From assembly GCA_030835125.1 (NCBI GenBank), contig JAUQWM010000012.1:62001-126000 (forward strand): a stretch of 64,000 nt of DNA, in the 5' to 3' direction. The notes under the pieces are model-generated. The model was given only the letters and a program-made list of their open reading frames with translations, was not told the origin of the DNA and searched no databases. How positions within the stretch are numbered: position 1 is the first letter of the stretch; each line of letters begins with the position of its first letter. The position numbers and the translations under genes were made by a program. This document shows positions 11,093 through 55,463 of the stretch, piece by piece. The DNA is from Gemmatimonadaceae bacterium. Its GTDB lineage: Bacteria > Gemmatimonadota > Gemmatimonadetes > Gemmatimonadales > Gemmatimonadaceae.

Positions 11093-11216
11093 GGGACTCT
11101 CAGCGAGTTGGTGATGTCGCGTGTTGCAATCTTGCGATCACACTACAGGTCCACGCCCCTCATCGCCAGCACCGCGGGCTGGCGAGGCGCGCGACGCGGT
11201 CGTAGGATTGACGCCC

Positions 11217-12227
11217 ATGCGCCGCCTCGCCCTCACGCTCGGCCTGACCTGCGTCGCGACGCTCCGGGCCACCGCGCAGTCCGCCTCCACCGAAGGCGGT
11301 CCGGTGCGCCTCGGAGCCACGTCTGCTTTCTCCGCACCGGCGTGGGCGTTCCCGACGGCGCTGCCCGCGGCCCCTGACCCGTTCCCCACCGCGGACAGCA
11401 CACATCAGCACCGCATCCCGGGCGCAGGCCGGAGCTTCACGCAGAAGCAGGCCTTCAACCGCCACGCGCCGATCGACTGGTTCCCCGGTTCCCATCCCGC
11501 GGCGCCGCGCCCGGTGATGCTCGGCCGGCGGCCGGACGCATGGGCCTGCGCCTTCTGTCATCTCCCGGACGGTGCCGGTCGCCCGGAGAACGCGGTGCTT
11601 GCGGGGTTGCCCGCGGAGTACATCGTGCGGCAGGTGCGAGCCTTCCGCGACGAGACGCGACGCTCCGCGAATCCGGTCGCGCCGCTCACGAGCATGCATC
11701 GGCTGGCGAAGCTCTACACCGACGGCGAGGTGGCGGAGGCGGCGGCGTACTTCGCGCGGCTGCAGCTGACGCGACGGAACCGGATCGTCGAGTCGGACTC
11801 GGTTCCACGGCACCACGTCGCGGGAGTGATCTACACGCGAGACGGCACGGGACAGGAACCGATCGACGGCCGGCTGATCGAGATGCCTGACGACTTCGAG
11901 CGACACGAACTGCACGACCCGACGGTGCGGTACACGACCTGGGTGCCGAAAGGAAGCCTCGCGCTCGGCCGGCGCATCGTGACGCAGGGACCGGCAGGGA
12001 TCGCGACCGCCTGCGCTACTTGCCATGGGCCGTCGCTGCTCGGCGTGGGCCCGGTGCCGCCGATCGCGGGGCGGTCGCCGCAATACCTCCTGCGGCAACT
12101 GATCAGTTTCCGCACCGGTGCGCGCGCCGACAGCGCGAGCACGCCGATGCTGGCTGTGGTGCGAGGCATGACGCTTCAACACATGGTCGCGGCGGCGGCG
12201 TATGTGGGGTCGCTCGAGCCGCGCTGA
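11217..12227 (+). CDS. Di-haem cytochrome c, periplasmic
   Basis: 336 residues from the ATG at 11217, which gives a signal peptide MRRLALTLGLTCVATLRATAQ. Two class I haem sites are visible: WACAFCHLPDGAGRPENAVLAGLP about a third of the way in, and ATACATCHGPSLLGVGPVPPIAGR near the end. Each is followed by the LP or AG-Y-L/I-RQ pattern seen in cytochromes of the c4/c553 type. It is probably an electron carrier or a dehydrogenase partner. No oxidoreductase partner gene is adjacent. Confidence 0.85.
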   Translation: MRRLALTLGLTCVATLRATAQSASTEGGPVRLGATSAFSAPAWAFPTALPAAPDPFPTADSTHQHRIPGAGRSFTQKQAFNRHAPIDWFPGSHPAAPRPVMLGRRPDAWACAFCHLPDGAGRPENAVLAGLPAEYIVRQVRAFRDETRRSANPVAPLTSMHRLAKLYTDGEVAEAAAYFARLQLTRRNRIVESDSVPRHHVAGVIYTRDGTGQEPIDGRLIEMPDDFERHELHDPTVRYTTWVPKGSLALGRRIVTQGPAGIATACATCHGPSLLGVGPVPPIAGRSPQYLLRQLISFRTGARADSASTPMLAVVRGMTLQHMVAAAAYVGSLEPR

Positions 12228-12261
12228 AGCACTGCCACGCTTTCACCGTTGGCCGGCTTCC

Positions 12262-12768
12262 TCACAATTTCCGGCTGTCGTAGGCCCAGTGGAGGAGTGC
12301 CTGGCGTTGTCGGCGCCGGCAGTCGTGGTCGCGAGGACGGCAGCCCTGCGTGACCTGGGCGACGTGGCGGGTCATCTGGCGCCAGCGGTGGACCTGGCGA
12401 TCGTCGTCGAGACATCGCCTGCCGAGGTAGTAGCGGCAGTACCACTGGAACCATCCTCGCGGGTCTTCGTGGTAGATCCAGCCGTTCTTCCGCCAGACGG
12501 CAAGCGGCTGCGACGCGTTCACGCCGAAGAAGTTCATCGTCGGGTCGTGTCGGTCGGGACTGAGCCTCGCGCGCCGGAACCAGCTCGCCGGGAACTCATC
12601 ACGGCAGTCGGTCATGTATTTCCCGCCGAAGACACCGAGTGCCAGCAGCTCGGCCGGCGTGAGCTCGGGGCGGAAGTCGGGATGGAAGTTGCGACCCGTT
12701 GGCTCGGTGAGCCGGTAGCTGTAGTCGCGCTGCATGCGGTCATTGACCGTGATCATGCGCGCGATCAT
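12262..12768 (-). CDS. Conserved uncharacterised protein
   Basis: About 168 residues. The ATG at 12768 overlaps the upstream GNAT stop (ATGA). The protein is rich in aromatic residues and has the blocks YRLTEPTGRNFHPDF, ELLALGVFGGKYMTDC, FFGVNASQPLAVWRKNGW, DPRGWFQWYCRYYLGRR and RRQRQALLHWAYDSRKL. I recall this as a widely conserved but functionally unknown bacterial protein, without a known fold. There is no signal peptide or TM segment. Translational coupling to the acetyltransferase may only reflect operon packing. Confidence 0.75.
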   Translation of the reverse strand: MIARMITVNDRMQRDYSYRLTEPTGRNFHPDFRPELTPAELLALGVFGGKYMTDCRDEFPASWFRRARLSPDRHDPTMNFFGVNASQPLAVWRKNGWIYHEDPRGWFQWYCRYYLGRRCLDDDRQVHRWRQMTRHVAQVTQGCRPRDHDCRRRQRQALLHWAYDSRKL

Positions 12769-13325
12769 CCGTGGTCTGGCCGCCGGAGAGTTCGCGTGAA
12801 GGCGAGAACATCCTGGGTCATCGCGGGCTCGAGGTTCGGAAAGCCTGACGTCCGCGCGCGGCGCTCGACGAGGTGAAACCCGCCTTTCTCGAGCACGTGC
12901 ACCGACCGCGCGTTTTCCGGGTGACAGCCCGCCGTGAGTTCCTGGACGCCGAGCGACTCGCCGAGCGCGACCATCGCGAGCAGGGCTTCCGTAGCGTAGC
13001 CCCTGCCCCACGCGTCGTGGGCGAGCACGTAACCCGTTTCGGCTCTTACCGGTGACTCGAAGTCCAGCCCTGTGCCGCCAAGCAGGAGGCTGTCCTCGCT
13101 CCGGATGATGAGGTATGCGGCGGCCCCCCAGCGTTCCCAACCGGCGTCGCTGAATGCGAGGAACCCTTCGGTGTCGGCGAGCGATCGGTGTGTCGGCCAG
13201 GCCATGAACCTGGTGACGCGCGGATCGGACGCGTAACGACGGAAGATGACTTCCGCATCTGCGGGCCGCGGCCGACGCAGCGTCAGGCGTTCTGTCGACA
13301 GGGACTCCGGGGCTGGCATTGGCAT
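12765..13325 (-). CDS. GNAT-family N-acetyltransferase (RimJ/RimL-like)
   Basis: 186 residues from the ATG at 13325, which shares a base with the preceding stop (TGATG). The start ESLSTERLTLRRPRPADAEVIFRRYASDPRV, the central GTGLDFESPVRAETGYVLAHDAWGRGYATEAL (acetyl-CoA loop, R-G-Y-A) and CHPENARSVHVLEKGGF match acetyltransferase type 3 (RimJ/RimL group). It transfers acetyl to an N-terminal or small-molecule amine; the substrate is not predictable. Confidence 0.85.
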   Translation of the reverse strand: MPMPAPESLSTERLTLRRPRPADAEVIFRRYASDPRVTRFMAWPTHRSLADTEGFLAFSDAGWERWGAAAYLIIRSEDSLLLGGTGLDFESPVRAETGYVLAHDAWGRGYATEALLAMVALGESLGVQELTAGCHPENARSVHVLEKGGFHLVERRARTSGFPNLEPAMTQDVLAFTRTLRRPDHG

Positions 13326-42055: not shown

Positions 42056-42718
42056 TTCCAGGACACCCACATCGGTCAGGCGGCTTTCTACTTTGCGACG
42101 CAGCACTGGGAGCGCTCGATCGAGTGGGCGCAGCGGGGCATCGCGCTGGGCGACCGGCACGGGATCATTGCCTGGTCGGTGAACCGGCTGCTGGCGATCG
42201 TGGCCGAGGCGGCGTGGTACGACGAGGACTACGAGCTGACGGAGGCGGCGGGGCGGCGGCTCCGGGTGGAGGCGCCCCGGCTGGGCATGGACTCGGCGTC
42301 CTGTACGCGGAGGCGGCGGAAGTCTTTCTCGCGCATCTCCGCTCCCCCAAACCTGAGACCGTCCCTGCCCTGTTTAGGCATCGCCGCACGTACCGAGTCG
42401 GTATCCTATGTGTTCCACGCGGCGCGCCTCCGTCGCTTCGCGGCCAAGATCATGCTGGCGATGGGGGACAAAGGGGGCGCCGAGCGCGAGTACCGGTTGG
42501 CGCACGAGACGTTTCAGCGTCTGGGGGCGGAGTTCGAGCTGCGGCTCACGCGGGAGCAGATGCGGGAGCAGGGGTGGCGTCCGCCGCAGAAGTTGAACGG
42601 AGCGCGTGGGGTGTTGACGCCGCGGGAGTTGGAGATCGCGACATTTGCGGCGCGGGGGCGATCGAACAAGGATATCGGGGCCGTGCTGGACATATCCTGG
42701 CGGACGGTGAGCCGGTGA
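42056..42718 (+). pseudogene. Frameshifted, truncated LuxR-type regulator
   Basis: Reading across two frameshifts gives a tetratricopeptide-like helical part (HIGQAAFYFATQHWERSIEWAQRGIALGDRHG; VLYAEAAEVFLAHLRSP in the next frame). A LuxR DNA-binding domain follows (LTPRELEIATFAARGRSNKDIGAVLDISWRTVSR) and is cut by a stop inside the recognition helix. It has no start codon and lacks the N-terminal ATPase expected of such large regulators. It marks the left edge of the low-GC island. Confidence 0.75.
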
Positions 42719-42789
42719 CCGCTACTCCAGCTTAGACCTGTCTCCAAACGGGACCAACGTCAGCACCCCGGAAAGTCTAAAGCTCAACG

Positions 42790-42814
42790 GTCGACCTGAT
42801 AGGGGAGCTTACCA
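42790..42814. repeat. Direct repeat, left copy, downstream of dndB
   Basis: GTCGACC-TGATA-GGGGAGCTTACCA. The right copy at 44804-44823 is GTCGACC-GGGGAGCTTACCA, identical except for the 5-bp insert. The pair brackets dndB and the membrane-protein gene. The rest of 42719-42888 holds no gene I can support. Confidence 0.6.
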
Positions 42815-42888
42815 ACCGACATACAATGCCCGATGAGGCTTTGACCCGGGCGCGACAGAAACTCTGCAGTCTCGGACTTAGACCCTCA

Positions 42889-44097
42889 CTAGCTTGCCGC
42901 CAAGGCTTCGTATTGGGGTCGGTCGGCCTCAGGTACTTCATCGATGTCTTCTAAGTCCAGAGTGAGCGCGAGCATGTGTTTGATCCGAACGCGGCCGTGG
43001 CCCGAAGCTTGAAAGAAGTTATCGGCAAAATCGACCGTGGACGCTTTAGCCAACAGTTTCTTAAAGCTCGCTTCTGTCAAGTCCTTCGCCGTGATTGTAT
43101 CGCGAGCGATCATAGCAAGGATGTCGAAGAGAGCCTGCACCCCAACCGTTCTGATGATATAGGACTTGGGCTTGGCCGGCTGCCAGAGCGTCGTATTGGC
43201 GGCGCCTAGAAAGTTCCTAACCAGAGTGTATATCGCCTTGTCGTTTGTCGCTCGGTACAGATCGCGCGCCGGCGTCTTGTCGTCGGGAAGTCTAGTGCGG
43301 CTGCGCTCCTCGCGAGGCACCATAAACATTGTGTTACGGTCGCTCTTTGGATCTCTTGAAAACAGCCGCAACAAACCGTCGACAACCGTGGCTGTAGAGA
43401 CGCGCCACAGACTCCCGTTCAATGTCAAGAGCTCAGAGTCCTGAGGCGCGACTGTGATGCGACCGCGGAGTGGCGAGTCGTCATCAACGTTGAGTCGTCG
43501 TGTCAAGAAGACTGCAGTCTTCTCTGGCGTCCAGGCATCCGCAGACTCTTCCTCAACGTCAAAGCCAAACAGCTCGTAGGCGAGACTTCGATCAACCTTC
43601 TTCTGATTGAAGTTGACAGTCGCGAAAACGTAGGCCTGAAAGGGATTCGGTAGGTCGAGAAACACGGAGCACACGAGCGGCATCTGCTCTCTATCGCTAA
43701 CGGTCGCTTTATCGAAACCCCAAAGGCGATGCTGTCCGTCAACCACACTCGCAAGGCGCTGACGGGATGGGATAACGAGTTCGTGACCTTCGATCATCCA
43801 CCGTGCGCTTTCTTCCTCCAACTCACCATCAGCACGATAGTTGGCCGCGATGACAATTGAGGTCGGGAAGACCGCCTCGACCGTATCAATGAACTTGCCT
43901 ATCTCCTTCAGTCGTTCAAGGCGTTGCGCGCGCTGTGTTCCACTGATCCTGTAGCTCTCCGCATTGACGTCAGACACTCTTGCTGCATCGGCATACGCCA
44001 CCTCACGCAGCAAATCGGCCGGCAGTACCGCTACATAGAATGTGCCAAACGGTTGAGTGACCGGGAGCGCAGCGGTGCGATGGGGAAACTCTGACAT
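42889..44097 (-). CDS. dndB: DndB-like DGQHR-domain protein
   Basis: 402 residues from the ATG at 44097 (MSEFPHRTAALPVTQPFGTFYVAVLPA). The DGQHR motif is at residues 120-124 in RQRLASVVDGQHRLWGF. The second family motif appears as ATVNFNQKKVDRSLAYELFG, where other members have N-x-T-Q-x-K/R. DndB is the ParB-superfamily regulator of phosphorothioate modification, known to repress dnd genes in some species. It lies at the far end of the island, 7 bp after a small membrane-protein gene, away from dndCDE, which is an unusual position. Confidence 0.88.
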   Translation of the reverse strand: MSEFPHRTAALPVTQPFGTFYVAVLPADLLREVAYADAARVSDVNAESYRISGTQRAQRLERLKEIGKFIDTVEAVFPTSIVIAANYRADGELEEESARWMIEGHELVIPSRQRLASVVDGQHRLWGFDKATVSDREQMPLVCSVFLDLPNPFQAYVFATVNFNQKKVDRSLAYELFGFDVEEESADAWTPEKTAVFLTRRLNVDDDSPLRGRITVAPQDSELLTLNGSLWRVSTATVVDGLLRLFSRDPKSDRNTMFMVPREERSRTRLPDDKTPARDLYRATNDKAIYTLVRNFLGAANTTLWQPAKPKSYIIRTVGVQALFDILAMIARDTITAKDLTEASFKKLLAKASTVDFADNFFQASGHGRVRIKHMLALTLDLEDIDEVPEADRPQYEALAAS

Positions 44098-44104
44098 GTT
44101 TGCT

Positions 44105-44581
44105 CTACGTTTGAAAGCCGGTGGTGTCGCCGGACAAAGACTGAGTATCCCCACCTGTGGCCGCTGCTGGGTTCGGGCTCCCAATGTTCGCGTTGGTACT
44201 GGCCGATAGAATCCAAAGTAGCCACGCGAAGGCAGCTGCTGGCCATAAGAGATGACCTGGTTCCAGTCCGCCGGGAGAACTAGTCCTCGTCGTCGTGGCC
44301 ATAATTGACATCGAGATCGATGCGCTACCGAGAGATATTGCAAGCATCCGCATCGAACGCGACGAACTGTCTGGAAGCACAAGCTCCACGGCGGCGGCGG
44401 CGGCGATCCCCATCGCGTAGCTGGCGAGGCTAGCGTTGAACTGTGCCGTCTCGGATAGCCACGCGCCGAGACCACCGATTCCGATGACAACAACGACGAA
44501 ATACATCAGTCGTGGGGGGTCGACAATGGCCTGCAGTCTGCGCTTAACGTCTCTCGAGAGTCCCAGCCATTCTTCACGCAT
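44105..44581 (-). CDS. Four-TM membrane protein upstream of dndB
   Basis: 158 residues. About four hydrophobic helices: LMYFVVVVIGIGGLGAWL, SLASYAMGIAAAAAVELVL, MRMLAISLGSASISMSIMA and LLWPAAAFAWLLWILSA. A basic cytoplasmic start (LSRDVKRRLQAIVDPPR) and a polar tail (SPNPAAATGGDTQSLSGDTTGFQT) flank them. I recognise no family. It is followed 7 bp later by dndB on the same strand, so they are probably co-transcribed. It may be an anchor or effector, but nothing in it proves this. Confidence 0.6.
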   Translation of the reverse strand: MREEWLGLSRDVKRRLQAIVDPPRLMYFVVVVIGIGGLGAWLSETAQFNASLASYAMGIAAAAAVELVLPDSSSRSMRMLAISLGSASISMSIMATTTRTSSPGGLEPGHLLWPAAAFAWLLWILSASTNANIGSPNPAAATGGDTQSLSGDTTGFQT

Positions 44582-44803
44582 CAGTGCACCTCCCAGGTGT
44601 CAATTTAGTCGACAAGCATCGCCTCCCTTGGGAGCGACGGAGTTGCTTGAGGCGGGCTCTCGTGTGTCTGCGCTAGGAATACAGAATGCATTGTCGGATA
44701 CCGACACAGACAGTATGGCCGATGGTGGCAACCATAATCATCGCGCTGCGTCCGGCGCGGCACGCGCGTCGGATCCGCCGCCCGCCCCTCTTGCTCGTAG
44801 TAC

Positions 44804-44823
44804 GTCGACCGGGGAGCTTACCA
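44804..44823. repeat. Direct repeat, right copy, downstream of dndA
   Basis: GTCGACC-GGGGAGCTTACCA, the partner of 42790-42814. It lies 49 bp past the dndA stop, as the other lies 75 bp past the dndB stop. The 290-bp gap 44582-44871 otherwise contains no gene I would call; it probably holds the promoter of the membrane-protein-dndB unit. Confidence 0.6.
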
Positions 44824-44871
44824 GCGAACGTCTTGTGAGCACCTTCAAACAGCCATCGACGGAGAATCTGC

Positions 44872-46062
44872 TCAGAGCGTCTCGGACGATCGCCGGAGGT
44901 CACGAAGCCTGCTCACGGCTTGGCTTACCGCTCTTGCCGCGAAATCAATCTCTGGCTCGGTATTAAATCTGCCAATCCCAAAACGAATCGCGCCATAGGC
45001 GCTCTCTTCGTCCACCCCGCATGCCCTAAGAACATAGGACGGCTCAAGGGAAGCGGAGGTGCAGGCCGATCCCGAGCTGACAGCAATATCCTTCATCGAC
45101 ATCATCAACGCCTCAGCCTCGATCTGACTAAAGGTAACGTTGAGGTTGCCCGGTAGCCGATGAGCAAGAGAGCCATTCACCCGAATCGCATCGATCGATT
45201 CGAAGAGCCTCTGCTTGAGCCGGTCTCGGAGCTGGCCCACGCGTTCCGACTCCGCAGGCATTTCCCGTCTAGAGACCTCACAGGCCTTTCCGAATCCGAC
45301 GATCAACGGAACCGGAAGGGTTCCTGACCTCAACCCTCGCTCATGGCCCCCACCGAACATCAACGGCGCAATTCGAGCTCTCGGTCGATTCCGCACGTAG
45401 AGTGCACCAACTCCCTTCGGCCCGTACATCTTGTGTGCTGACAGAGACACCAAGTCCGCATTAGCCAGCGCCACGTTGAAGGGGATCTTGCCCGCCCCTT
45501 GCACAGCGTCGACGTGAAAGAGAACGCCCTTCTCTCGGGCGATGCGACCGATCTCGACTACAGGTTGGAGGACACCGATCTCGTTGTTGGCCAGCATGAT
45601 CGAGATCAGAATCGTATCGGGCGCTATACTTTCCCGCACAGCCTCCGGATGTATCCGTCCGTCTGTGTCAACCGGTACGTACGTAACCCGATACCCCTGC
45701 CCCTCCAGATACTTGCAAGTGTCGAGGACAGCCTTGTGTTCAATCTGGCTGGTAACGATGTGTCGTCCCCTCGCCGCGTGGAACTCAGCGGCGCCTCGAA
45801 TCGCCAGGTTATCAGCCTCCGTTGCACCCGACGTCCACACGATCTCCTCGGCAGCCGCCCCGATCAAGTCTCCAACTCGCTGCCTCGCCTCACCCACCGC
45901 GCCTTCAGCCGCGAACCCAAATGAGTGGGTTCTTGACGCAGCGTTCCCAAATACACTCGTGAGGAATGGCATCATCTCCTCTAACACACGAGCGTCTATT
46001 TGAGTCGTCGCGTTGTTATCGAGGTACACCGGAAGCGTCACCGAACCGTTTTCGCTCTCCAT
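44872..46062 (-). CDS. dndA: Cysteine desulfurase (DndA/IscS-like)
   Basis: 396 residues, normal for the family. [38 protein letters not shown] opens the protein, [20 protein letters not shown] and [17 protein letters not shown] follow, and the PLP lysine is in [18 protein letters not shown]. The persulfide-forming Cys is in the mobile loop [19 protein letters not shown], a loop of IscS type. It supplies sulfur from L-cysteine to DndC. It is 9 bp after the MBL gene, in the same operon. It could also be a housekeeping-type IscS recruited to the island. Confidence 0.93.
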
Positions 46063-46071
46063 AACTTCTGC

Positions 46072-47103
46072 TTAGCAACCCCACTCGCGGCTAAAATGGT
46101 TGTTGGACGGCTGAGAACGGATTCCCAATCGTTCCTCGATGGCCTGCGAAAGTTCCACACCATGGGTTCTCGTGTTATCTGTCACGACGAACTTGGCTCC
46201 GGTCGCTGTGATGTAGTCAAGCGTCCCTTGGAAATCAGCATGATTTGAAAGGGCGACCTTATAGGCCCGGTCAGAATACTCTAAGACGGGGTCCCGATGA
46301 GGAACCATGTACGCACTCAGTGAGATCGTGGTGCCACCAGTTGAACCATCGGGAGGCCGATCACCCTTCGAATAGAGCCTGATATAGCGCTTTGTTCTCA
46401 GCGCATCCACTCCTTCGCTGGAGCGGCTCATAAGAACCGTCCCAACTGCCGCGCCATGGCCCTGGTAAACGGCAATCTCTTGACAAAGCCTTTCGCTCGC
46501 GATCACCGGAGCATTGACGTTCGTGCTCAGGAGTTGGAGAGCACGTTGAATTGTGCCTCGATGTGCATGCACGTGCACCGCGCCCGTTCGCAATTTCGCG
46601 TGAACGAGTTCTACTAGCCTCGCTTCCGCGTCCTCTTGCGAATACTGCCTGATACTTCCGGGGCTTCCATATGTGCTATCGACCACCAACTCGTCGCACT
46701 TGATAACATCCTCAGGATCAAGAGGCCATGCAAAGTCGCCCGAGTAGCCGAGCCGCTTCCCGTCCGCGCGCTCTACGAGCACCTGGACTGACCCAAGCAT
46801 GTGTCCGTTGGGCACAAGCGTTAGCTGGCTTGTCCCGACTTGAAACACTTCCCGGGGTTGAAGCGCGTGAATATTCTGCCTGACGGAGAGGTCGGCGTTG
46901 AACTCTGCGATAAGCAACTCGTGAGTCTGTGGGCTCATGACCAAGTCCTGCATTCCCTTGCTTGTCGTAAATCCAAACATGTGGTCGTCGTGCACATGCG
47001 TTTGAACACGAAGCGGGCGGTCTCGGTGAAACCCGTCACACACGACATCTGGCCCGAGCAACACGCCCCCGGTAGCCAGTACATCAACAAGTCTCTCAGC
47101 CAT
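46072..47103 (-). CDS. Metallo-beta-lactamase-fold nuclease (beta-CASP/exonuclease-like)
   Basis: 343 residues. The MBL metal site is intact: H36-V-H38-D-D40-H41 in VQTHVHDDHMFGF, then LVPNGHMLGSVQVLVE, LGYSGDFAWPL and VDSTYGSPG. The last region ends with VALSNHADFQGTLDYITATGAKFVVTDNTRTHGVEL, like the terminal His motif of SNM1/beta-CASP nucleases (COG1236-type). A metal-dependent DNA or RNA nuclease is likely. Its start overlaps the ParB-like gene's stop by 8 bp. An MBL nuclease is not a standard Dnd partner, so it may be the effector that replaces DndFGH. Confidence 0.8.
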   Translation of the reverse strand: MAERLVDVLATGGVLLGPDVVCDGFHRDRPLRVQTHVHDDHMFGFTTSKGMQDLVMSPQTHELLIAEFNADLSVRQNIHALQPREVFQVGTSQLTLVPNGHMLGSVQVLVERADGKRLGYSGDFAWPLDPEDVIKCDELVVDSTYGSPGSIRQYSQEDAEARLVELVHAKLRTGAVHVHAHRGTIQRALQLLSTNVNAPVIASERLCQEIAVYQGHGAAVGTVLMSRSSEGVDALRTKRYIRLYSKGDRPPDGSTGGTTISLSAYMVPHRDPVLEYSDRAYKVALSNHADFQGTLDYITATGAKFVVTDNTRTHGVELSQAIEERLGIRSQPSNNHFSREWGC

Positions 47104-47803
47104 CCGCGAGGCCCGTCTTCAGGTTCGCGTTAATCAGGAACTCGAGCTCATCCTTGTTGGCCCGAATCCTCTGGCCTAACTCCTCACCGCCCACTATGGT
47201 GAATCGCGACACTCCAAGTCGACCCGACGCCTTCACCGGTTTCAGAAGCGCTTTCGCGGACTCCGCCAAGAGCAAGTCCCGGTCCTTTTGGCTTAGCGCT
47301 GACAACCTTGCCTTGACAGCCTCGTCACGAACGGTTCCGATCAGTACGTGGCGGACGACCACCTGTGGTCGCATCCGGATGACAGACTGAACGCACTCGG
47401 CCATTGGCTTGCGGGACCGCTTTCGCGCCTGAACTAGCTGCCGGACCTCAGATGTCGAAAGGCCGTACTCCAACGCGGCATGAGCAGCACCTCGTTGGTC
47501 CGCCGCATCGTCAAGGCGTGAGATTTCGAAAGCCGAGCTGAATGCAATTCCCTCGTTGGCGCGACCCCACGACACAGTATGCTGAATGTCCTCTGGCAGC
47601 TTTGAGAGCGCCAAGAACCGGCTCACTTGGGTGGTCTCTACCTGTGCCGCGGAGGCGCACTCTTGAACGGAGCTGCCGGTCCGCAGAGCCTTTTCAAACA
47701 GCCCTGATACCTCCATTGGCGACAGCGCTCGTGTTCCCCGGTGAGTCCCCACAGAAACGATGAGCTGCCTTTGCTCTTCGGGACTTAGACCACTCATCGA
47801 CAT
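47096..47803 (-). CDS. ParB-related HTH protein without nuclease/CTPase domain
   Basis: 235 residues. The N-terminal half is a ParB/KorB-like helix-turn-helix: RALSPMEVSGLFEKALRTGSSVQECASAAQVETTQVSRFLALSKLPEDIQHTVSWGRANEGIAFSSAFEISRLDDAADQRGAAHAALEYGLSTSEVRQLVQ. The rest is a helical C-terminal domain without a motif I recognise. The ParB N-terminal fold is lacking, but an intact ParB gene precedes it with TAATG coupling. It may be the DNA-specificity partner of that protein. Confidence 0.75.
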   Translation of the reverse strand: MSMSGLSPEEQRQLIVSVGTHRGTRALSPMEVSGLFEKALRTGSSVQECASAAQVETTQVSRFLALSKLPEDIQHTVSWGRANEGIAFSSAFEISRLDDAADQRGAAHAALEYGLSTSEVRQLVQARKRSRKPMAECVQSVIRMRPQVVVRHVLIGTVRDEAVKARLSALSQKDRDLLLAESAKALLKPVKASGRLGVSRFTIVGGEELGQRIRANKDELEFLINANLKTGLADG

Positions 47804-48624
47804 TAGCTTCCGAAGCCTTTACCCAAGAGGCCCTCTTCGATGAGAGACGCCGCAGCGTCATCTTGGCTGGTTCCTTCATTGTCCGCGAACGTCTGAAGGT
47901 GTCGATGAGTCTCCCCGGTCAAAGTCACTACGATTTGAGTGACCTTGGATCCCGTACGCGCAGCCTCGATTGATTCATCCACAGATGCTTCTGGTTTCTC
48001 TTCTCGTTCCTGGACAAGCTTCTTCTGCTGGATTCCAGGCATGGACGCCATTTCTTTCGCGAGCTTAACGGCGTCCGCGGGGTCCGGCTTCTCCCCGCCG
48101 GCAGCGGCAGCATCTTGGGCACGGAGTGCCACTCTGATGTCCACCTCGCCACTATCGACCATGCCCTTAAGGGGCTTGATTAGCCGATCGTACTTGACGT
48201 ACTGACTGACGGTTTGCGCTTTCAATCCCGTCGCTTCTGCAACGGCCTTGATCGAACCGTACTTCTTGTACAGAGCGGTGCACGCATCGATGTACTCTTT
48301 TTGACTCACGTCGCGCCTCACAAGGTTCTCGGTAACCGAAATTGCTTTGGCGGTCTCTGCGTCCACCGGTTTGTTGAGAACCAGCGCTCGGATCGTTTTG
48401 GCCTTGTTCTTCTTGTGAGCCAGAAACCGGCGCTGGCCGGTAAGAATTTCGAATTTTCCCTTCTTCTCGCCCTCACACACCACGATAGGCTGAAGTAGCC
48501 CCTGTACGCGGATGCTCTCCGCAAGCTCATCGATGTCCTTATGAACATCTTTCACGCGAACTTGGCCCTTGCCGATTACCAAGTCATCGAGCGGAATGTC
48601 GCGGATATCGTTTGTGGTGATCAT
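47803..48624 (-). CDS. ParB/Srx-fold partition-like protein
   Basis: 273 residues. The ParB N-terminal domain is clear: IPLDDLVIGKGQVRVKD, VQGLLQPIVVC, the GQRR motif at 63-66 (TGQRRFLAHK) and the ENLVR motif near 99-103. Together these are the ParB CTP-binding positions. An HTH follows (YGSIKAVAEATGLKAQTVSQYVKYDRL), then a Lys/Glu-rich linker and an RHH-like C terminus (KVTQIVVTLTGETHRHLQTFADNEGTSQDDAAASLIEEG). No ParA is nearby. In this operon it probably slides on or marks DNA rather than partitions plasmids. Confidence 0.85.
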   Translation of the reverse strand: MITTNDIRDIPLDDLVIGKGQVRVKDVHKDIDELAESIRVQGLLQPIVVCEGEKKGKFEILTGQRRFLAHKKNKAKTIRALVLNKPVDAETAKAISVTENLVRRDVSQKEYIDACTALYKKYGSIKAVAEATGLKAQTVSQYVKYDRLIKPLKGMVDSGEVDIRVALRAQDAAAAGGEKPDPADAVKLAKEMASMPGIQQKKLVQEREEKPEASVDESIEAARTGSKVTQIVVTLTGETHRHLQTFADNEGTSQDDAAASLIEEGLLGKGFGS

Positions 48625-50069
48625 GAAACGTCCTCCGTGGACGGTTGGGAGATGCGCGGTGAAGGGTGGAGTTCAAGAATCCTCAATAGTTCCCGTTTGG
48701 TGAGCCGTTCTACATCAGGACCAGGTGCGTTCTCAATGTATTCATCGAACAACTCCTGCTTCAGTCGCAGAATCTTATCGATGCGCTCCTCGACCGAATC
48801 CTTCACCAGCAAGCGCACTGCGTGAAGGGGCCGTTTACGGGCAAACCTGTGGGCCCTTGAAATCGCCTGCGCTTCAGCGGCAGGGTTCCACCACCGATCA
48901 AAGAGGACTACTACACTTGCCGCCTCTAGATTCAGCCCTAAGCCTCCGGCGCGGAGAGACATAAGCAGGACTCTCGGCCCTTCGGCATTCTCAAATCGCG
49001 CTATCACCTCATCGCGCTCCGCTAGTGACAAGCCGCCGTGGTACAACTCGCAGTCGATAGCATCAAGCTGCTGCCCTAGCCAGGTGAGTGTCTCGACGAA
49101 CTGAGAGAAGATGATGATCTTGTCGAGCGGACCACGTGCGGATTCCACAATAGTTCGAACGAGTTCTAGCTTGGACGACGAGTTTGTCTTCGGGTCATAG
49201 TTACATGCCTGCTTCAGCTTTGTGAGTAGTGCGAAGAGGCTGGTAACCGGAATAGCATCTTCCTCATCGGACGGCAAGCCTTCCTGCCTAGCGTACCAGA
49301 GCCTGTCGTACGCGAGCCGCTGCTCATCCGTGAGTTCCAGGACAAGATCCTGGACTTGAATCGGAGGAAGCTCGCCCATGACGATGCTCTTCCTTCGGCG
49401 GAGCATGTGCGGTGCAAGACGCGAGAACAGTTCATCCTTCGTTACGGCATTCGTCAGCAACCCGGGTCTCACGAAATCGAAAACCGAGTGCAGTTCTGCC
49501 CGTGAATTCTCTAGGGGCGTCGCAGACAGTGCCCATGAAATTCTCCGGGAGAGGAGCTTGCAGGCGAAAGCCACCTGAGAGTCCGCGTTCTTGATCCGTT
49601 GGGCCTCGTCCAGGAGCACCAAGTCAAAGGTGTCGGCTGGGATATTGTCCAGCGCGTCTAGCCTCATTTGGTCGTAGGTGCCAACGACCACCTCAACAGG
49701 CAGTAGGTACAGCGAATTGCGCTCGTCGGCAGACCCCATCAAGCGCCGAACCACTAGATGGGGGGCCCATCTCGCCAATTCTCGTTCCCAGTTCAATGCC
49801 AAGGAAGCTGGGGCGACGATCAACGCCCGGCCCACATCCGGTTTCCGAAGACAGAGCGACAGGGCAATGATCGCCTGGACTGTCTTGCCAAGGCCCATCT
49901 CGTCCGCCAGCAACGCCGAGGAGTTGCGGTAAAGGAAGCTGACACCTTCCCACTGGTATTGGCGCAGCGGGGCGTGCAGAAAGCCCTTTGCTGCTTCCAG
50001 CTCCTCCTCGACAGAGGCCACGAGCCGCGACCTAAACCAGTGTTGGTGGGCGATGCACGAACTCTGCAA
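48621..50069 (-). CDS. Compact SNF2-family helicase
   Basis: 482 residues from a TTG at 50069, or 466 from the GTG at 50021, which lies after the dndE stop and avoids a 38-bp overlap; neither has a strong ribosome binding site. SNF2 motifs are complete: I in SALLADEMGLGKTVQAI (residues 56-63), DLVLLDEAQRIKN (II), ALSATPLEN (III), IIIFSQFVETL (IV), LLMSLRAGGLGLNLEAASVVVLFDRWWNP (V) and QAISRAHRFARKR (VI). It is minimal, with no extra domains. It is a double-stranded DNA translocase coupled by ATGA to ParB. Confidence 0.92.
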   Translation of the reverse strand: MQSSCIAHQHWFRSRLVASVEEELEAAKGFLHAPLRQYQWEGVSFLYRNSSALLADEMGLGKTVQAIIALSLCLRKPDVGRALIVAPASLALNWERELARWAPHLVVRRLMGSADERNSLYLLPVEVVVGTYDQMRLDALDNIPADTFDLVLLDEAQRIKNADSQVAFACKLLSRRISWALSATPLENSRAELHSVFDFVRPGLLTNAVTKDELFSRLAPHMLRRRKSIVMGELPPIQVQDLVLELTDEQRLAYDRLWYARQEGLPSDEEDAIPVTSLFALLTKLKQACNYDPKTNSSSKLELVRTIVESARGPLDKIIIFSQFVETLTWLGQQLDAIDCELYHGGLSLAERDEVIARFENAEGPRVLLMSLRAGGLGLNLEAASVVVLFDRWWNPAAEAQAISRAHRFARKRPLHAVRLLVKDSVEERIDKILRLKQELFDEYIENAPGPDVERLTKRELLRILELHPSPRISQPSTEDVS

Positions 50070-50421
50070 GATCGCTTAGGTGTTTCATACGGCTTGCCAA
50101 GAGAATGACGCCCCTATGGAGATGAGCCCTGAAAGGCCCTTCTAGCTCCGCATCCGGGTCAATCCCGTCATTTGCCAAGCGCTGGCGAAGAAGTGCAACG
50201 AACACGGTATCGTACTCTCCAAGCAAGGTGTACCGGTTGATATCACGGTCCGATTCATCGTCATACCTGTCCTCACTCGGTATCCCGGGCTCACTGAGAG
50301 AGAGGCAGAATCCTATTCGACAAAGCAGATTGGGCGTGATACCAGTCCGAGCCTTGAGAACCCGAAGCCAGTTATCAGCTTCCTTCGAGAATCGCACACG
50401 TCTGATTTCAAGCTCCGACAT
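50032..50421 (-). CDS. dndE: DndE-family protein
   Basis: 129 residues from the ATG at 50421, 14 bp inside the dndD 3' end. The conserved DndE core is LEIRRVRFSKEADNWLRVLKARTGITPNLLCRIGFCLSLSEPG; the remainder is helical. DndE is a small tetrameric protein that binds nicked DNA and is essential for phosphorothioation. Its size matches. Confidence 0.85.
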   Translation of the reverse strand: MSELEIRRVRFSKEADNWLRVLKARTGITPNLLCRIGFCLSLSEPGIPSEDRYDDESDRDINRYTLLGEYDTVFVALLRQRLANDGIDPDAELEGPFRAHLHRGVILLASRMKHLSDLAEFVHRPPTLV

Positions 50422-52453
50422 CCGCAACCTCCTCTTGATGCCAGAAGTAGCCTGGTGTTGCCTCCGTCCATCCATCAGAATGGTTCACCAGATGGAGCGA
50501 GTGTGACATGTTCGGCCGGAGCGTCTCGACGTAGGCTGCGTTGATCTCCGTATCGGTTGAGAGGATAATCACCTGATGCGAAGCAGCTGGGAAATACCTT
50601 TCAAGCAGATGCTTTCGGTGCACTGTGTCGAGTCGGCCTAGTGGCGTGTCGATGATCATCGGCAGCGCACGCCCGGACACTCTGGCTAGCCCCCAAAGCA
50701 GTGCTACGGCATAAATCTGCTTTTCGCCTGCCGATAGCAGCGCCTTGGGAAGTCGTTGATGTTCCCGATCAAATAGCGTGACTTCAAACGTCAGCGGGTT
50801 GATACTCAGGCGCTGAACGAGGTCGGACTTGCGACTCAGTGTTTGGAAGCAGTCGAGGGCGACCTTCTCAAGCTCGTCGACTTTGGCCACCGTTAGGCGC
50901 TTCAAGTACTCATCAAGTGCCTTCCGTGCCGACGCTGCCAGAGCGAGTCGTCTGGCCACCGAATGCGATTCGCTTTGCGTCTTGAGAATCCTCGCTCGCT
51001 CATTCGCGAGAATCGTGACCTGCTTTTCGAGGCGCGACCGATCCTCCGACTTCAGGGTGAGCTCCAGGGACAGTTTCGCCTGCTCCTCTTGAAGCAGTGA
51101 CAACTGCTTGACGAAGGGAGCAACCTCGTCTGCTTCTGGCGCCCGGTTCAAATGCTCCTGCACTTCTCGGAGCTCGGCAATCGTTGCCTCTAGTTCCTTC
51201 GTTAGCTCCGCTATTCGTGTCGGCGTTTCGCCCAAGGCCGATTCGAGCGTCTGGATCGCTTCGTGGCGGACGCGTTCTGAAAACTCGTGCACCGGTCGAA
51301 TAGCGGCCAGCGCGGAAGGCACTGTGCCTAGCTCTGTGGCGAGCGCTGCGATTTCAGAGGCCAGAGCGTTCCTAAGCTTCGGGGCAAGGCCGAGCCGGGC
51401 CGCGACTTCGCCGTTAATGACGCGACTTGAAACGGCGTCGAGCGCCCGTTGCGCTTCGACCCTTCCCGCGCGCCACGACTCCAGCGCGGCTTCCTGCCGT
51501 AGTTGCTCAACGAGCTTCTGGCTCAGCGCTCCGCAAATCGCAAATGGAAGGATCTTCTCACATTCATCCCTGAGAGCTCGTTCGACCTGTTCACGTCGCT
51601 CTTCCAGTTGCACTTTGCGGTTCCGCAGTTTACCGCGCTGCGCAGACAAACCCTCGCCGCGCTGCGCCAGCTGACGCTCAGTCTGCGCGATTGCATCGGC
51701 TAATTCCGCAAGGCGCGACGTTGCCGACTGCTCTGCAGTCTGAACGGACCTCACTTCGGTCTGAAGCTTCTCGTCGGTGGATTCAAGTTCTTGAAGGCGG
51801 TTGGCCAGCGCACCAGTAACAGTCTTCTTTAGATAGCGTGAGTTGTAGAGATCAAGGTCGGCCTGGAGGCGCTCGACAATATCCAGACCCAAGAGTGACT
51901 TTACGGATTCGCCGAGCGTCACAGCCTCGGTTTCCTCTTCGGCAAGCCTCATAATGCGTTCGCCATCGAAGAAGAACAGCTGCGAAACTCCGGGAGGAAT
52001 TAACGACCGGATAAACTCCGACCAGAATTGCGATTCGACGTCCGCCAAGGGCTGGCCATCGCGGAGAACACGAAGGCTTTCAATTACACTCGCGGTTCCC
52101 TTCGATTCCCAGGCACGATGGACGAGATAGGTTGACCGAACGCCTCCGTGCGCGTACTCGAACTCAAGGGCGACCGAGGCGTAAGAAATCGGTATCAGTG
52201 CAGCCTTGTTCCGATGAATCTTGTCGTGGAGAAACGACTGATACTCCGCTTCCGATGTCCTGAGACCGAGCGCTAACCGACCGTAAAGGCACACACGAAT
52301 CGCTTCAAGGATCGTCGTCTTGCCTGCACCGTTCTGGCCACCAATCAGAACTATCGGCCTCAGTCCGCCGCTTTTCGGTCGTGGCTTTAGCGAGAGCGTC
52401 TGTTCCCCCCGATATAGTCCGAAGTTCCGCAGCGTGAGTTGATTAATTCGCAT
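50408..52453 (-). CDS. dndD: DndD, SMC/Rad50-like ATPase
   Basis: 681 residues from the ATG at 52453 (MRINQLTLRNFGLYRGEQTL), which overlaps the dndC end by 11 bp. Walker A GGQNGAGKT is at 38-46. A long coiled coil, roughly residues 190-560, is predicted by heptad-like runs. The ABC signature LLSAGEKQIYAVALLWGLARVSG and Walker B ALPMIIDTPLGRLDTVHRKHL close the head. The hydrolysis is thought to drive DNA nicking or strand handling for sulfur insertion. Confidence 0.92.
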   Translation of the reverse strand: MRINQLTLRNFGLYRGEQTLSLKPRPKSGGLRPIVLIGGQNGAGKTTILEAIRVCLYGRLALGLRTSEAEYQSFLHDKIHRNKAALIPISYASVALEFEYAHGGVRSTYLVHRAWESKGTASVIESLRVLRDGQPLADVESQFWSEFIRSLIPPGVSQLFFFDGERIMRLAEEETEAVTLGESVKSLLGLDIVERLQADLDLYNSRYLKKTVTGALANRLQELESTDEKLQTEVRSVQTAEQSATSRLAELADAIAQTERQLAQRGEGLSAQRGKLRNRKVQLEERREQVERALRDECEKILPFAICGALSQKLVEQLRQEAALESWRAGRVEAQRALDAVSSRVINGEVAARLGLAPKLRNALASEIAALATELGTVPSALAAIRPVHEFSERVRHEAIQTLESALGETPTRIAELTKELEATIAELREVQEHLNRAPEADEVAPFVKQLSLLQEEQAKLSLELTLKSEDRSRLEKQVTILANERARILKTQSESHSVARRLALAASARKALDEYLKRLTVAKVDELEKVALDCFQTLSRKSDLVQRLSINPLTFEVTLFDREHQRLPKALLSAGEKQIYAVALLWGLARVSGRALPMIIDTPLGRLDTVHRKHLLERYFPAASHQVIILSTDTEINAAYVETLRPNMSHSLHLVNHSDGWTEATPGYFWHQEEVADVGA

Positions 52454-53921
52454 CAATCTCCTCGTCGATCTCGTCCGCGTCGGTCTCCGCACGCCATCCT
52501 ATTTCCTCAAACACTTCCGCTGCCGAACGCCAGTCCTTACTCAGGATTCGATCGATTCGCTCATGAACCGAGGCGCGCCTTCCCAAGCCCTGAAGGTCCC
52601 TCTCGAGATCGATCAGCTCTCGAAGAAGTGGAGCCTTCACCTCTAGTTCTGCGCAGACCTCTTCGAGGACCCTTCGATCCAAGGCACGACTGCCCGTGGT
52701 GTCTTCGCCAACCCAGTCAAGGTCCCCGCCGACCACATCTCGATACACTTCCGGCAGCGCATCTTCCCAGTCCCCTTCTTCGGTCCTCCACATGCGACGA
52801 ATCTCGTGGAGTTCGTCGACCGAAATGAGCGCAGCCTCCGGGTCCGGCCCGTTCTGTCGGACCCTCATTTGAGCCGACAAAAGCCTGCGCAGGATTTCAC
52901 GCCGAAAGGACAGCTTGTACGGGCCCCACACGATCTTGTTTTGGTCAGGCCCCCAGATTCGCACGCGACCGTCTCGCCGGCGTACCTCCCGGAATTCGTG
53001 CTTCCGGCTCGGTTCAGCGGTGGATGCCAGCCAATCTCTGAGTTCAAGGAGCGGTTCAAGCCACTCCTGGCCGCTGTCGATCATGGCTTCCATCGACTTG
53101 TCGCGCTGAACGACTGTGCAGGTCCAGCAACCAAAACGACTACCCCCGCACGACGGTGTCGTCGTATCCACTACTAACGGGCATTCACCGGCTTGGGCGT
53201 TGCGATAGAGGGTGACCAAGTCGCGGTTGTTTGCGCCCCAGGGCGACGGAATCGAAAGGAGGTAGGACCAGACGTCATCCGTGCTGAAGTGCTCGATGGG
53301 GCTATAGACCCATGCGCTCCGAAGGACGGTATGCCGCGAGAGGATCTCTCCCGGTGTCCGGTGCAGGCTCATTACTTGGGCGCGAGTGGCGCTCTCGGAC
53401 CGCCGAACACCGAGGACGAGGATGACCTCGCCATGCCGATTGACCTGCTCTTCGATGAATCGGTTCGCCGGTTGAATTTTTAGACGATCCGTGCACCAAC
53501 GAAATCGACGGTAGGGTGCGGGGTACCCCTTACCGATCATGTTCACCCAAAACGTGTCTTGTAGTCGGGGGCGCACTTTTTCCGCTTTGAACGGCATCCC
53601 GGTCCTGGAGGCGACTTCGTTGATTCGGTCAAGAGTCTTGTCGATGTAGCTCACGATCACCGGTGTCTCCACCAGCGTATCGGACGCGATCACATAGACA
53701 GTCTTCTGTCTGCTCTCAGGAGGCAGCTTCGAAAGAGCACTCCAGATCAGCTGCAACGCTGTTGTAGAATCCTTGCCGCCGCTGTATCCGATCACCCACG
53801 GACGGTCGTCAGCTGTGTAAACCGTTCGAATCTCGTTTTCGAGCTCCGGAAGCGGCCTTTGCTCTCCCGGCTTGCTCGCTATTCCGACGCTGGGAGAAGA
53901 ACGCGGTTCAAGGTCGGGCAC
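52443..53921 (-). CDS. dndC: DndC, PAPS-reductase-like sulfurtransferase
   Basis: 492 residues, the usual DndC length. The PP-loop WVIGYSGGKDSTTALQLIW (residues 42-60) binds ATP. The downstream block YRRFRWCTDRLKIQPANRFI and the Cys cluster SCGGSRFGCWTCTVVQRDKSMEAMI give the four Cys for a [4Fe-4S] cluster. It adenylates and accepts sulfur for transfer to the DNA backbone. It is the first gene of the operon; its start overlaps a possible short upstream ORF by 14 bp. Confidence 0.95.
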   Translation of the reverse strand: MPDLEPRSSPSVGIASKPGEQRPLPELENEIRTVYTADDRPWVIGYSGGKDSTTALQLIWSALSKLPPESRQKTVYVIASDTLVETPVIVSYIDKTLDRINEVASRTGMPFKAEKVRPRLQDTFWVNMIGKGYPAPYRRFRWCTDRLKIQPANRFIEEQVNRHGEVILVLGVRRSESATRAQVMSLHRTPGEILSRHTVLRSAWVYSPIEHFSTDDVWSYLLSIPSPWGANNRDLVTLYRNAQAGECPLVVDTTTPSCGGSRFGCWTCTVVQRDKSMEAMIDSGQEWLEPLLELRDWLASTAEPSRKHEFREVRRRDGRVRIWGPDQNKIVWGPYKLSFRREILRRLLSAQMRVRQNGPDPEAALISVDELHEIRRMWRTEEGDWEDALPEVYRDVVGGDLDWVGEDTTGSRALDRRVLEEVCAELEVKAPLLRELIDLERDLQGLGRRASVHERIDRILSKDWRSAAEVFEEIGWRAETDADEIDEEIDAN

Positions 53922-54144
53922 GATACTCCTCGTGGAATAGGTCTCTCAGGTCAAGCTGAGCGAAAGTACGAGCTTGCAGGAATTCTCTAGCGCTGTTTAG
54001 TGCGGCTGGGACCAAACTCGGACAGGACCAGGGCGCTGATGCGGCGTCCGCATGCTGGATCGTGAGGACGCATGGAAGGATAACGTCCTGCTCAGTACGG
54101 AGGAGCGCGTTGTTACAGCCCGGGGGGGTCGGTAACTGAGCCAC
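53908..54144 (-). CDS. Possible small gene upstream of dndC
   Basis: An open frame of 78 codons (ending AREFLQARTFAQLDLRDLFHEEYRARP) overlaps the dndC start by 14 bp, like other gene pairs of the island. The sequence is not recognised, has no clear start signal and could be the leader region holding the operon promoter. I rate it less likely than not to be a real protein. Confidence 0.3.
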   Translation of the reverse strand: MAQLPTPPGCNNALLRTEQDVILPCVLTIQHADAASAPWSCPSLVPAALNSAREFLQARTFAQLDLRDLFHEEYRARP

Positions 54145-54394
54145 GTCTGCACGTCGCAGGCGCGGGTAATACTCAGCCTAGGTCGGGAGAAAGGCTAGGC
54201 CGAGACGGATCAAGAAGCGGGGATTCGTGGCTCCGCTCCTTGTACGGTCTGGCGGGGGGAGTAACGGGATTGGCGGGCGGGGTTGGGCAGCTGCCGGAAG
54301 CGTAGCCGATGAGGAGTCGCGGAGACCACCTGATCAGAGAGGCTTCGGTCGCCTTGAACCTCGCGACGAGCGACAGCAGACGAGGATCGGCGGC

Positions 54395-54610
54395 GCCCAG
54401 GCAGTTGAAGAGCGCGGCGAGCTGGGAGGGCTTCACGGGCAATTCCCCGATCGAGACTCCGGATTCCTTGAGCCGGACCAGGACCTCGCCCATCACCCAG
54501 TTGGCGGCGACCTTGGCGTCGCCGTGGCCGCTGGCTACGGCATCGCAATCTCAGTAAACGCTGGCGGCGGGCGGCGGGGAGTTCGGGGAGGCCTGAGCGC
54601 GCGTCGACGA
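54395..54610 (-). pseudogene. Fragments of gatB (glutamyl-tRNA amidotransferase subunit B)
   Basis: The minus strand reads GLPELPAARRQRLL, then in another frame HGDAKVAANWVMGEVLVRLKESGVSIGELPVKPSQLAALFN. Both match the tail region of GatB (PSLPAARR, and GDAKTAANWVMGEL..L......I.ELPV.P..LA.L). The rest of the gene is absent and the frame shifts between the two blocks. This is debris at the right edge of the island; 54145-54394 carries nothing else I recognise. Confidence 0.6.
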
Positions 54611-54678
54611 ACAAGGCCTCGCTTTCGGAGGGTACCTGACCGATTTTCGCAGGGAACCGCATTCCCCCCGCGACTCCC

Positions 54679-55463
54679 ATGCCGACCTTCCCATCACTCC
54701 TCGGCCTCACGCTGGCCTGTGCCGCGCTCGTCGCGCCGCTCGCGCGCATCCCCGCGCAGGACGCGGACCTCATTTTCCGCAATGCCCGCATCTGGACGGG
54801 CGACTCGACGCGGCCGCGCGCCGAAGCCGTTGCCGTTCGCGGCGAGCGGCTCATTGCCGTGGGCACGAACGCCGAGGCCGACGCCCACCGCGCGGCGCAC
54901 ACACGGGTGATCGACGCCGGTGGGCGCTTCATCACGCCGGGCTTCATCGACGACCACACGCACTTCGCCCAGGCGGGCGCCTTGCTCATCGGGGCCAACC
55001 TGCTGGACGTGTGCATACCGCCACACCGTTCGCCGAGCGCGTGAAAGCCGCGGCCCGTCGCTTGAGTCCCGGCGCCTGGCTGACCGGCGGCGACTGGGGC
55101 GCCTACGAGGACAACCCGGCCAACGCCACCGGCGGCGCGGTCGCCCGCCCCGTCACGCGCTTCTCGCCGGATCGCTCGATCATCGACTCGGTGACACCAG
55201 GCACGCCGGCACTCCTCAATCGCTGGGACCGGAGCGCCTGGCTCGCCAATGGCGCGGCGTTGCAGGCCGCGGGCGCGACCTGCGACCGCCCGATGGAGGG
55301 ACTGGAATGCGTCGGTGGAAACGCCACCGGCCGCATCAGCGGGGCCGCGCTGGCGCGGGTGCGCGCGGCGGTGGCTCCACGGTTCGGGTCGGACGCGGCG
55401 GTCGCTGCGTATTTCCGGGAGCGAGGTTCACATTGCGCTTCCAGCGGGCGCGGCGGTGCGTGA
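54679..55463 (+). pseudogene. Frameshifted amidohydrolase (YtcJ-like)
   Basis: It starts with a signal peptide (MPTFPSLLGLTLACAALVAPLARIPAQ) and the amidohydrolase start DADLIFRNARIWTGDSTRPRAEAVAVRGERLIAVG with RVIDAGGRFITPGFIDDHTHF (HxH intact). After about residue 112 the frame changes; the continuation reads FAERVKAAARRLSPGAWLTGGDWGAYEDNP and LLNRWDRSAWLANGAALQAAG. It ends near 55430, at about half the length of a YtcJ protein. It is broken both by frameshift and by 3' truncation. Confidence 0.7.

Follow-up and report, generated by a model that had tools for sequence, protein, structure and literature searches.

A phosphorothioation gene island in a Gemmatimonadaceae bacterium carries a recurring SNF2-ParB-ParB-MBL cassette that looks like a partner of the sulfur mark

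Systems that place phosphorothioates (PT) in the DNA backbone are already known, and they have been described with varied partner genes: DndBCDE with DndFGH, IscS-DndBCDE with DndI in Salmonella (PMC11662687), the PbeABCD and CxC-ABC-ATPase systems (PMC10853773), and SspABCD with SspE or type 4 BREX. A survey of Dnd loci, in the parts available, names nucleases of the HKD, HNH, REase, URI, HEPN and PIN types and treats DndD/CxC together with DndE as an 'obligate pair' that forms the conserved core of modification operons (PMC10853773). Here we describe an island in a 64,000-nucleotide stretch of DNA from a Gemmatimonadaceae bacterium (contig JAUQWM010000012.1, positions 62,001 to 126,000; hereafter the window), in which genes for an SNF2-family ATPase, two ParB-related proteins (ParB1 and ParB2) and a protein of the metallo-beta-lactamase fold (MBL) stand within a Dnd modification operon. 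These four genes, the cassette, recur in PT loci of nine phyla and look like an apparently undescribed PT partner. No published description of the SNF2-ParB1-ParB2-MBL set was found in the titles, beginnings of abstracts and text passages covered; supplements and subscription papers lay outside this search, and a description may exist. The word starts 'mbl', 'metallo', 'lactamase' and 'DUF262' are absent from the main text of PMC10853773, as are 'mbl' and 'lactamase' from the available parts of PMC12839542.

The window holds a single minus-strand operon (53921-44872) of eight genes with no internal stops. The modification genes come first: a full-length DndC (52443..53921, 492 aa; TIGR03183 570.7 bits, cut-off 290.4, profile positions 2-447), the ABC-type ATPase DndD (50408..52453, 681 aa; TIGR03185 503.6 bits, cut-off 245.85) and DndE (50032..50421, 129 aa from the ATG at 50421, or 147 aa from that at 50475; PF08870 E 1.1e-26, TIGR03184 91.2 bits, cut-off 71.85). 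All three score above curated NCBIfam cut-offs, which is the gene criterion of a Dnd PT modification system. The cassette follows with SNF2 (48621..50021, 466 aa; PF00176 E 8.9e-44, PF00271 E 7.8e-21), ParB1 with a CTPase-type ParB N-domain and a helix-turn-helix (HTH) (47803..48624, 273 aa; PF02195 E 6e-16, TIGR00180 80.9 bits, cut-off 58.45), ParB2 with a ParB/Noc-type HTH domain (47096..47803, 235 aa; PF17762 24.8 bits, cut-off 22.6) and MBL, assigned to the beta-CASP metallo-beta-lactamase fold by an AlphaFold2 model and fold comparison (46072..47103, 343 aa). A cysteine desulfurase gene (44872..46062, 396 aa) closes the operon. With starts at 50421 for DndE and 50021 for SNF2 the junctions measure, in order, -11, -14, +10, -4, -1, -8 and +9 bp, confirming the eight genes, strand, places and tight spacing given in an initial annotation of this DNA. 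The name dndA used there for the last gene stood only in part. The protein is a desulfurase, with a PADLOC DndA match at E 3.2e-165 and a score of 569.5 bits over the cut-off of 548 for NF010611 (IscS subfamily), but it falls below the equivalog models for IscS (TIGR02006, 547.5 versus 643.2) and DndA (TIGR03235, 447.9 versus 480), and the PADLOC models for DndA and SspA score about equally (548.0 versus 544.4 bits); it is therefore called DndA/IscS-like. Another genome of the window's family, G143, carries DndB-DndC-DndD-DndE-DndA (DndB read by eye) and no cassette, and there DndE runs straight into DndA, which places the window's four genes between DndE and DndA. Beside the cassette-free operon of G143 a PADLOC MzaB match (L009 11295-15751, E 1e-24) was seen after two open reading frames (ORFs) without PADLOC matches.

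Relatives of the window's MBL were collected to a total of 21 orthologues including the window itself, with the distant homologue L136 omitted; two of these (L023 and L137) run into contig ends, leaving 19 loci with readable surroundings. DndC, DndD or DndE lies in the same gene cluster in 19/19, across nine phyla. The order SNF2-ParB1-ParB2-MBL is kept in 17 of the 19, the exceptions being L135 and L021, and among L021-L038 nearly all cassette junctions (49/52) are 50 bp or shorter, the remaining three measuring 111, 128 and 3959 bp. The proposal that the four inserted genes form a module was thus borne out, as a recurring module of PT loci, and in the loci read they never stand together without dnd genes; only the lone MBL of L136 does. 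Within the window's phylum the DndC model matched 4 of 395 genomes at E<=1e-40. Strong matches to the MBL profile were found in two of the same 395 genomes (G000 and G299), both with DndC, and weak partial matches near E 1e-9 in four others, while a single-protein MBL search of 298 genomes of the phylum returned one match, the window itself. This co-occurrence of DndC and cassette has P 7.7e-5 with the window counted; with the window removed, one cassette genome falls on the 3 DndC genomes of 394 (P ~0.008). The linkage is found again in all 18 other readable loci and is not chance. Defence genes cluster and the island is foreign by its GC content, so the cassette might have been defence-island cargo without a functional tie to PT; set against the 19/19 readable loci in nine phyla, the order kept in 17 and the short junctions, this is very improbable.

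The cassette is rare and scattered. Its second occurrence in the window's phylum is in G299, and a scan of species genomes with two narrow patterns, made from the MBLs of the window and G299, gave 18 loci with MBLs 49-56% identical, among them the G299 locus again (L028). In Acidobacteriota the MBL profile matched 5 of 297 genomes at E<=1e-15: two known carriers, L135 with a new full set, L137 with a frameshifted copy at a contig start, and L136. At E<=1e-30 it matched one of 265 Planctomycetota and one of 279 Pseudomonadota genomes, in each case the known carrier. Plasmid records held MBL relatives in three cases (26-28% identity) and no ParB2 relative; phage records held no MBL relative; and the narrow-pattern search of viral contigs found no MBL or ParB2 relative. 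ParB1 relatives were found on viral contigs (92), with identities of 43% or less over part of the protein among the matches listed (80 of 92). The isolate names of L028, L032, L034, L036 and L037 (RHO..., SB06...) suggest that many carriers are perhaps marine sponge symbionts.

The modification genes and nuclease partners around the cassette differ between loci. In layout A (14/19; L022, L024-L029, L031-L036 and L038) a desulfurase, a short DndC and a GmrSD nuclease precede SNF2, ParB1, ParB2 and MBL; the desulfurase was seen beside DndC in 12 of these 14 loci, and in L038 none was detected next to DndC. In layout B (3/19; the window, L030 and L037) DndE or DndCDE precedes the cassette. The contig of L030 starts at DndE, so that DndE and the desulfurase are the only modification genes visible, and L037 gave no desulfurase match. 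The two remaining loci are divergent: in L135 DndBCDE faces ParB1, ParB2, MBL, SNF2 and GmrSD on the opposite strand with a desulfurase near the edge, and in L021 DndB, DndC, DndD and an HNH gene lie beside ParB1-ParB2-MBL, the contig ending before any SNF2. The HNH nuclease of L021 (2989-3945; PF13391) adjoins both DndB-DndC-DndD and ParB1-ParB2-MBL and is a possible sulfur-reading restriction enzyme. Trees built for each of MBL, SNF2 and ParB1 separate the window and L037 (joined by L021 in the trees that include it) from L030 and the layout-A loci, with SH-aLRT supports of 99, 96 and 96. These were quick, midpoint-rooted trees in which L021 is absent for SNF2, L027 is omitted from all three, L035 is omitted for SNF2 and the unreadable L023 is labelled layout A by default, and the deepest branching order is unsure because the window and L037 have long terminal branches. 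Some loci show further features. L035 (1064-11023) is a decaying layout-A copy that begins inside DndC at the contig start, with GmrSD and SNF2 fragmented and about 4 kb of other ORFs separating ParB2 from an open MBL. L032 has a second GmrSD nuclease gene (10670-12571; 46% identical to that of L012) on the opposite strand just beyond MBL, and in L012 a phosphoribosyltransferase-like ORF (Pfam sub-cut-off) and a DprA gene (11903-13259) follow directly after the cassette on the opposite strand.

Each cassette protein was compared with profiles and structures. SNF2 contains the helicase pair only, with no nuclease domain at E 0.01 in Pfam, and its intact orthologues are about 50-53% identical, with 37% for that of L135. 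Among the matches listed (25 of 41), PADLOC gave ZorD 217.8 and DpdE 215.1 bits for this protein, scores of a size (215-218 bits) that is a generic helicase match. ParB1 has the ParB N-domain of the CTP-clamp family (PF02195 match, TIGR00180 above cut-off) and Noc and ParB as its nearest solved relatives. The motifs GQRR and ENxxRR, which we take to be CTP motifs of the ParB family, are present in 17/17 ParB1 proteins, and the Q of GLLQP in 15/17, with E in its place in L021 and L037. The idea that a ribbon-helix-helix tail on ParB1 stands in for DndE was considered and dropped, the tail profile having no solved relative at E<=10. For ParB2 an AlphaFold2 model (pLDDT 92.9) had Spo0J, ParB and Noc as top Foldseek matches, with probability 1.00 and modest E-values (best 1.5e-3); it predicts a DNA-binding domain of the ParB/Noc kind, with two strands and a long helix behind it and no CTPase domain. 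Of the ParB pair first proposed, ParB2 is corrected to a modelled ParB/Noc HTH domain lacking the CTPase part. No PADLOC model matched the window's MBL or ParB2 at E 0.01.

No Pfam family matched the MBL protein at E 0.01, and its NCBIfam matches all lay below cut-off. Its AlphaFold2 model (pLDDT 88.0) matched beta-CASP proteins over nearly the whole length, with fold-comparison Z scores of 28.5 for KH-CPSF, 27.2 for CPSF73, 26.1 for Artemis and 25.7 for SNM1A, and RNase J within 25-28.5. The motifs HxHxDH, H, D, DxTYG and HAD are intact in 20/20 proteins (window, L021-L038 and L135). By model and motifs MBL is a predicted member of the beta-CASP nuclease fold with intact metal-ligand motifs, a fold that, as modelled, is undecidable between DNA and RNA as substrate. 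The top profile and fold matches include CPSF, FttA, RNase J and Cas14, and the enzyme could act on RNA as an antiviral control of expression after ParB and SNF2 have sensed foreign DNA. We consider this improbable, as the other cassette parts come from families usually acting on DNA and the fold is silent on substrate. The best NCBIfam model, TIGR04122, describes a ligase-associated DNA damage response exonuclease that shares the MBL fold and metal motifs. Artemis and SNM1A are known DNA-repair enzymes. The cassette might thus mend or remove DNA breaks and nicks where PT occurs and leave invaders alone, a role that we regard as unlikely: TIGR04122 scores of 57-70 bits (69.8 in the window) are far under the cut-off of 325, no ligase gene lies in the window operon, and cassette-free PT loci exist, since of the four genomes with DndC sampled in the window's phylum two (G143 and G347) had no MBL match.

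We favour a reading, with a probability of roughly one half, in which the island would be a PT modification system with its own partner cassette SNF2-ParB1-ParB2-MBL acting as a PT-gated DNA-degradation effector. The cassette looks like a partner of the sulfur mark and probably has a role in antiviral defence. Desulfurase and DndC, with DndD and DndE in the window, would insert sulfur into host DNA; ParB1, of the CTP-clamp type, and the DNA-binding domain of ParB2 would load on DNA, along which the SNF2 motor would travel; and MBL would digest DNA from ends or nicks. The initial annotation's proposal of an attack on unmodified DNA is a conjecture at this stage. Sulfur-marked host DNA would be spared, possibly since PT linkages themselves resist the MBL nuclease. 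According to the available passages of PMC4611135, in a gene-therapy context, nucleotides carrying phosphorothioate withstand nuclease decay. Such a degradation effector would need no separate endonuclease, though it could operate alongside one (GmrSD or HNH), and this would account for a constant cassette among varying partners. A general PT-linked surveillance and digestion function was ranked first because the cassette stays constant while the modification genes (DndDE or none) and endonuclease partners (GmrSD, HNH or none) change. Several points weigh against it. That PT blocks this MBL enzyme is a guess. The beta-CASP family cuts both RNA and DNA, and the folds ranked highest for MBL are RNA enzymes. 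The GmrSD of layout A might restrict alone, like DndI, which the passages covered report to restrict on its own with IscS-DndBCDE (PMC11662687). The scan was seeded by two Dnd-linked MBLs and may have under-sampled relatives outside Dnd loci. One such homologue, the 30% identical MBL of L136, does lie outside Dnd, and the lack of DndD and DndE in layout A fits a role on the modification side better. The L136 gene (9999-11003) stands beside another MBL-like ORF and ordinary genes, with no dnd, ParB or SNF2 matches, and is possibly near the origin of the MBL family.

A role on the modification side is the main rival of the effector reading, though we hold it to be doubtful: SNF2, ParB1 and ParB2 would scan or load DNA for DndC, as a replacement for DndD and DndE in layout A and as their helpers in the window, and MBL would trim or open DNA for sulfur insertion. 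The evidence comes from the modification genes of layout A. DndD was found at E<=1e-30 in one of 13 layout-A genomes (G401, at a separate DndCDE locus), and DndE at E<=0.001 in none of the remaining 12, with G000 and G403 positive; the genome of L024 was outside this sample. The layout-A genomes are metagenome-assembled with completeness not given, which makes single absences weak but not twelve together, and G403, the genome of L030 whose contig starts at DndE, gives an example of an assembly gap in that DndD was not found there. DndC itself is kept with its motifs, FRWCTDR and FGCWTC in 14/14 and SGGKDS in 13/14 (L035 is cut by the contig start), and as noted a desulfurase usually adjoins it. 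The short DndC passes TIGR03183 and ends at profile position 347-349 of 447 (two tested), while full-length DndCs reach 446-447; the C-terminal ~100 profile positions are absent in 12/12 short DndCs aligned, an alignment without L027 and L035. This is the part that in the window's DndC holds a Sp-DndD/PbeB-like region (residues 415-460, PF20306). Direct binding of DndC to DndD is described for the Salmonella system in the part of PMC4611135 available, and we infer that the missing part would be the DndD docking site. Set against a modification-side role, the window, L037 and L135 combine DndDE with the cassette, which is therefore no plain substitute for DndDE, and IscS with DndCDE is given as enough for PT in E. 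coli in the same source (PMC4611135). A further, tentative possibility is that layout A is a separate PT machinery needing neither DndD/DndE nor SspB/SspC, in which the CTP clamp and SNF2 motor would deliver DndC to DNA and the sulfur would physically stop the resident beta-CASP nuclease, the window operon being its DndDE-equipped relative.

The nuclease of layout A carries GmrSD_N and GmrSD_C (DUF262/DUF1524) over cut-off in both proteins scanned, with DGQQR (74-78), H487 and N516 (HNH residues) invariant in 12/12. Its nearest solved structure is DndI (9JFL, E 2.1e-26), followed by SspE (E 2.8e-14), and PADLOC ranks HEC-06 (217.7 bits) above Orf5 (176.0) and SspE (61.6). Layout A thus resembles IscS-DndBCDE-DndI in joining PT genes to a DUF262/DUF1524 nuclease and differs in lacking DndD and DndE, and the SNF2-ParB-ParB-MBL set is unmentioned in the passages covered of PMC11662687. 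In the window operon itself no GmrSD was matched: no such domain was found in its ten operon and satellite proteins, and the L012 protein gave no separate tblastn match in the window at E<=1e-5. Nor did any nuclease family other than MBL match these ten proteins in the Pfam search. Like SspABCD-SspE and type 4 BREX, the loci combine a desulfurase with a PAPS-reductase-type sulfurtransferase, joined in layout A by a nuclease of the GmrSD type; unlike them, the sulfurtransferase is DndC (in L029 364.5 bits, versus 26.0 for SspD and 44.1 for BrxP), SspB, SspC, PglZ and BrxL being outside the search.

The window operon was also compared with the remaining described sets. It shares with DndBCDE-DndFGH the DndC, DndD and DndE over curated cut-offs and differs in partner genes, which come from other families. 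As in the PbeABCD and CxC-ABC-ATPase systems, in the parts of PMC10853773 available, a helicase-family motor lies beside DndC-DndD-DndE-DndA, the C-terminus of DndC weakly matches PbeB, and the ATPase scores close to PbeC (PADLOC DndD 652.5 versus PbeC 644.9 bits). The near-equality of the PbeC models speaks against a clean picture, though the DndD cut-off is passed. In contrast to PbeABCD the SNF2 protein has no HKD/PLD nuclease domain, and there is one ABC ATPase, one DndE and no CxC motif; this motif was found in none of three DndDs checked, the window's included. With the Dpd 7-deazaguanine system the island shares the DGQHR and SNF2 families (PADLOC DpdE as above for SNF2, DpdB 74.5 for the DGQHR protein), but the curated NCBI models fail in the window (DpdE 66.9 versus 500, DpdB 77.1 versus 300). 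Taken as a whole the cassette matches neither PbeABCD nor DndFGH nor Dpd. The DndH model (PADLOC PDLC02681) matched none of 20 genomes at E<=1e-10, the window's genome included, in a search whose only positive control was Sulfolobus acidocaldarius, which to our knowledge has no proven DndFGH, and whose controls included no genome of known DndFGH; TIGR03236 matched none of 18 genomes, but the control genome was silent too. The initial annotation placed the cassette 'in place of DndFGH' and had allowed for a dndFGH just outside the window. No DndH was found in the genome, in keeping with this part; substitution proved too narrow a description, as 14 of 19 readable loci have GmrSD beside the cassette and no adjoining DndD/DndE, which makes the cassette neither a mere replacement for DndFGH nor a fixed companion of DndCDE.

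On its base composition and left edge, the stretch from 42719 to about 54200 (right edge approximate) is an acquired island of ~11.5 kb, with about 57% GC amid DNA of 66-70% GC. A LuxR-type regulator gene (42179-42718) is truncated at the left edge, its GerE domain aligned at profile positions 2-35 of 57 only, and the island seems to be inserted into it. Comparison of 42500-42950 with 53900-54700 gave no exact direct repeat of 10-30 bp, no tRNA gene was found in the 64-kb window, and promoter and terminator scans gave signals no better than shuffles. Downstream of the desulfurase, on the minus strand, lie a 158-aa ORF (44105..44581) with hydrophobic stretches by eye and no matches in Pfam, PADLOC, NCBIfam or PHROG, which is probably island cargo, and a DGQHR/DndB-like satellite protein (42889..44097, 402 aa; TIGR04172 437.2 bits, cut-off 450; PF14072 33.0, cut-off 29.1). 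The latter gave no separate tblastn match in 19 other loci, and no other cassette was seen with it as a neighbour. TIGR04172 comprises satellite proteins, the first seven of which all adjoined PT genes, as stated in the part of PMC3226654 available.

A ParB/SNF2/beta-CASP partner, if recurrent, would extend the nuclease list of the Dnd-locus survey, and DndC operons without DndD or DndE genome-wide would contradict the 'obligate pair'. How DndC reaches DNA becomes testable gene set by gene set. If true, the cassette would connect ParB proteins of the CTP-clamp type with a mark on the DNA backbone.

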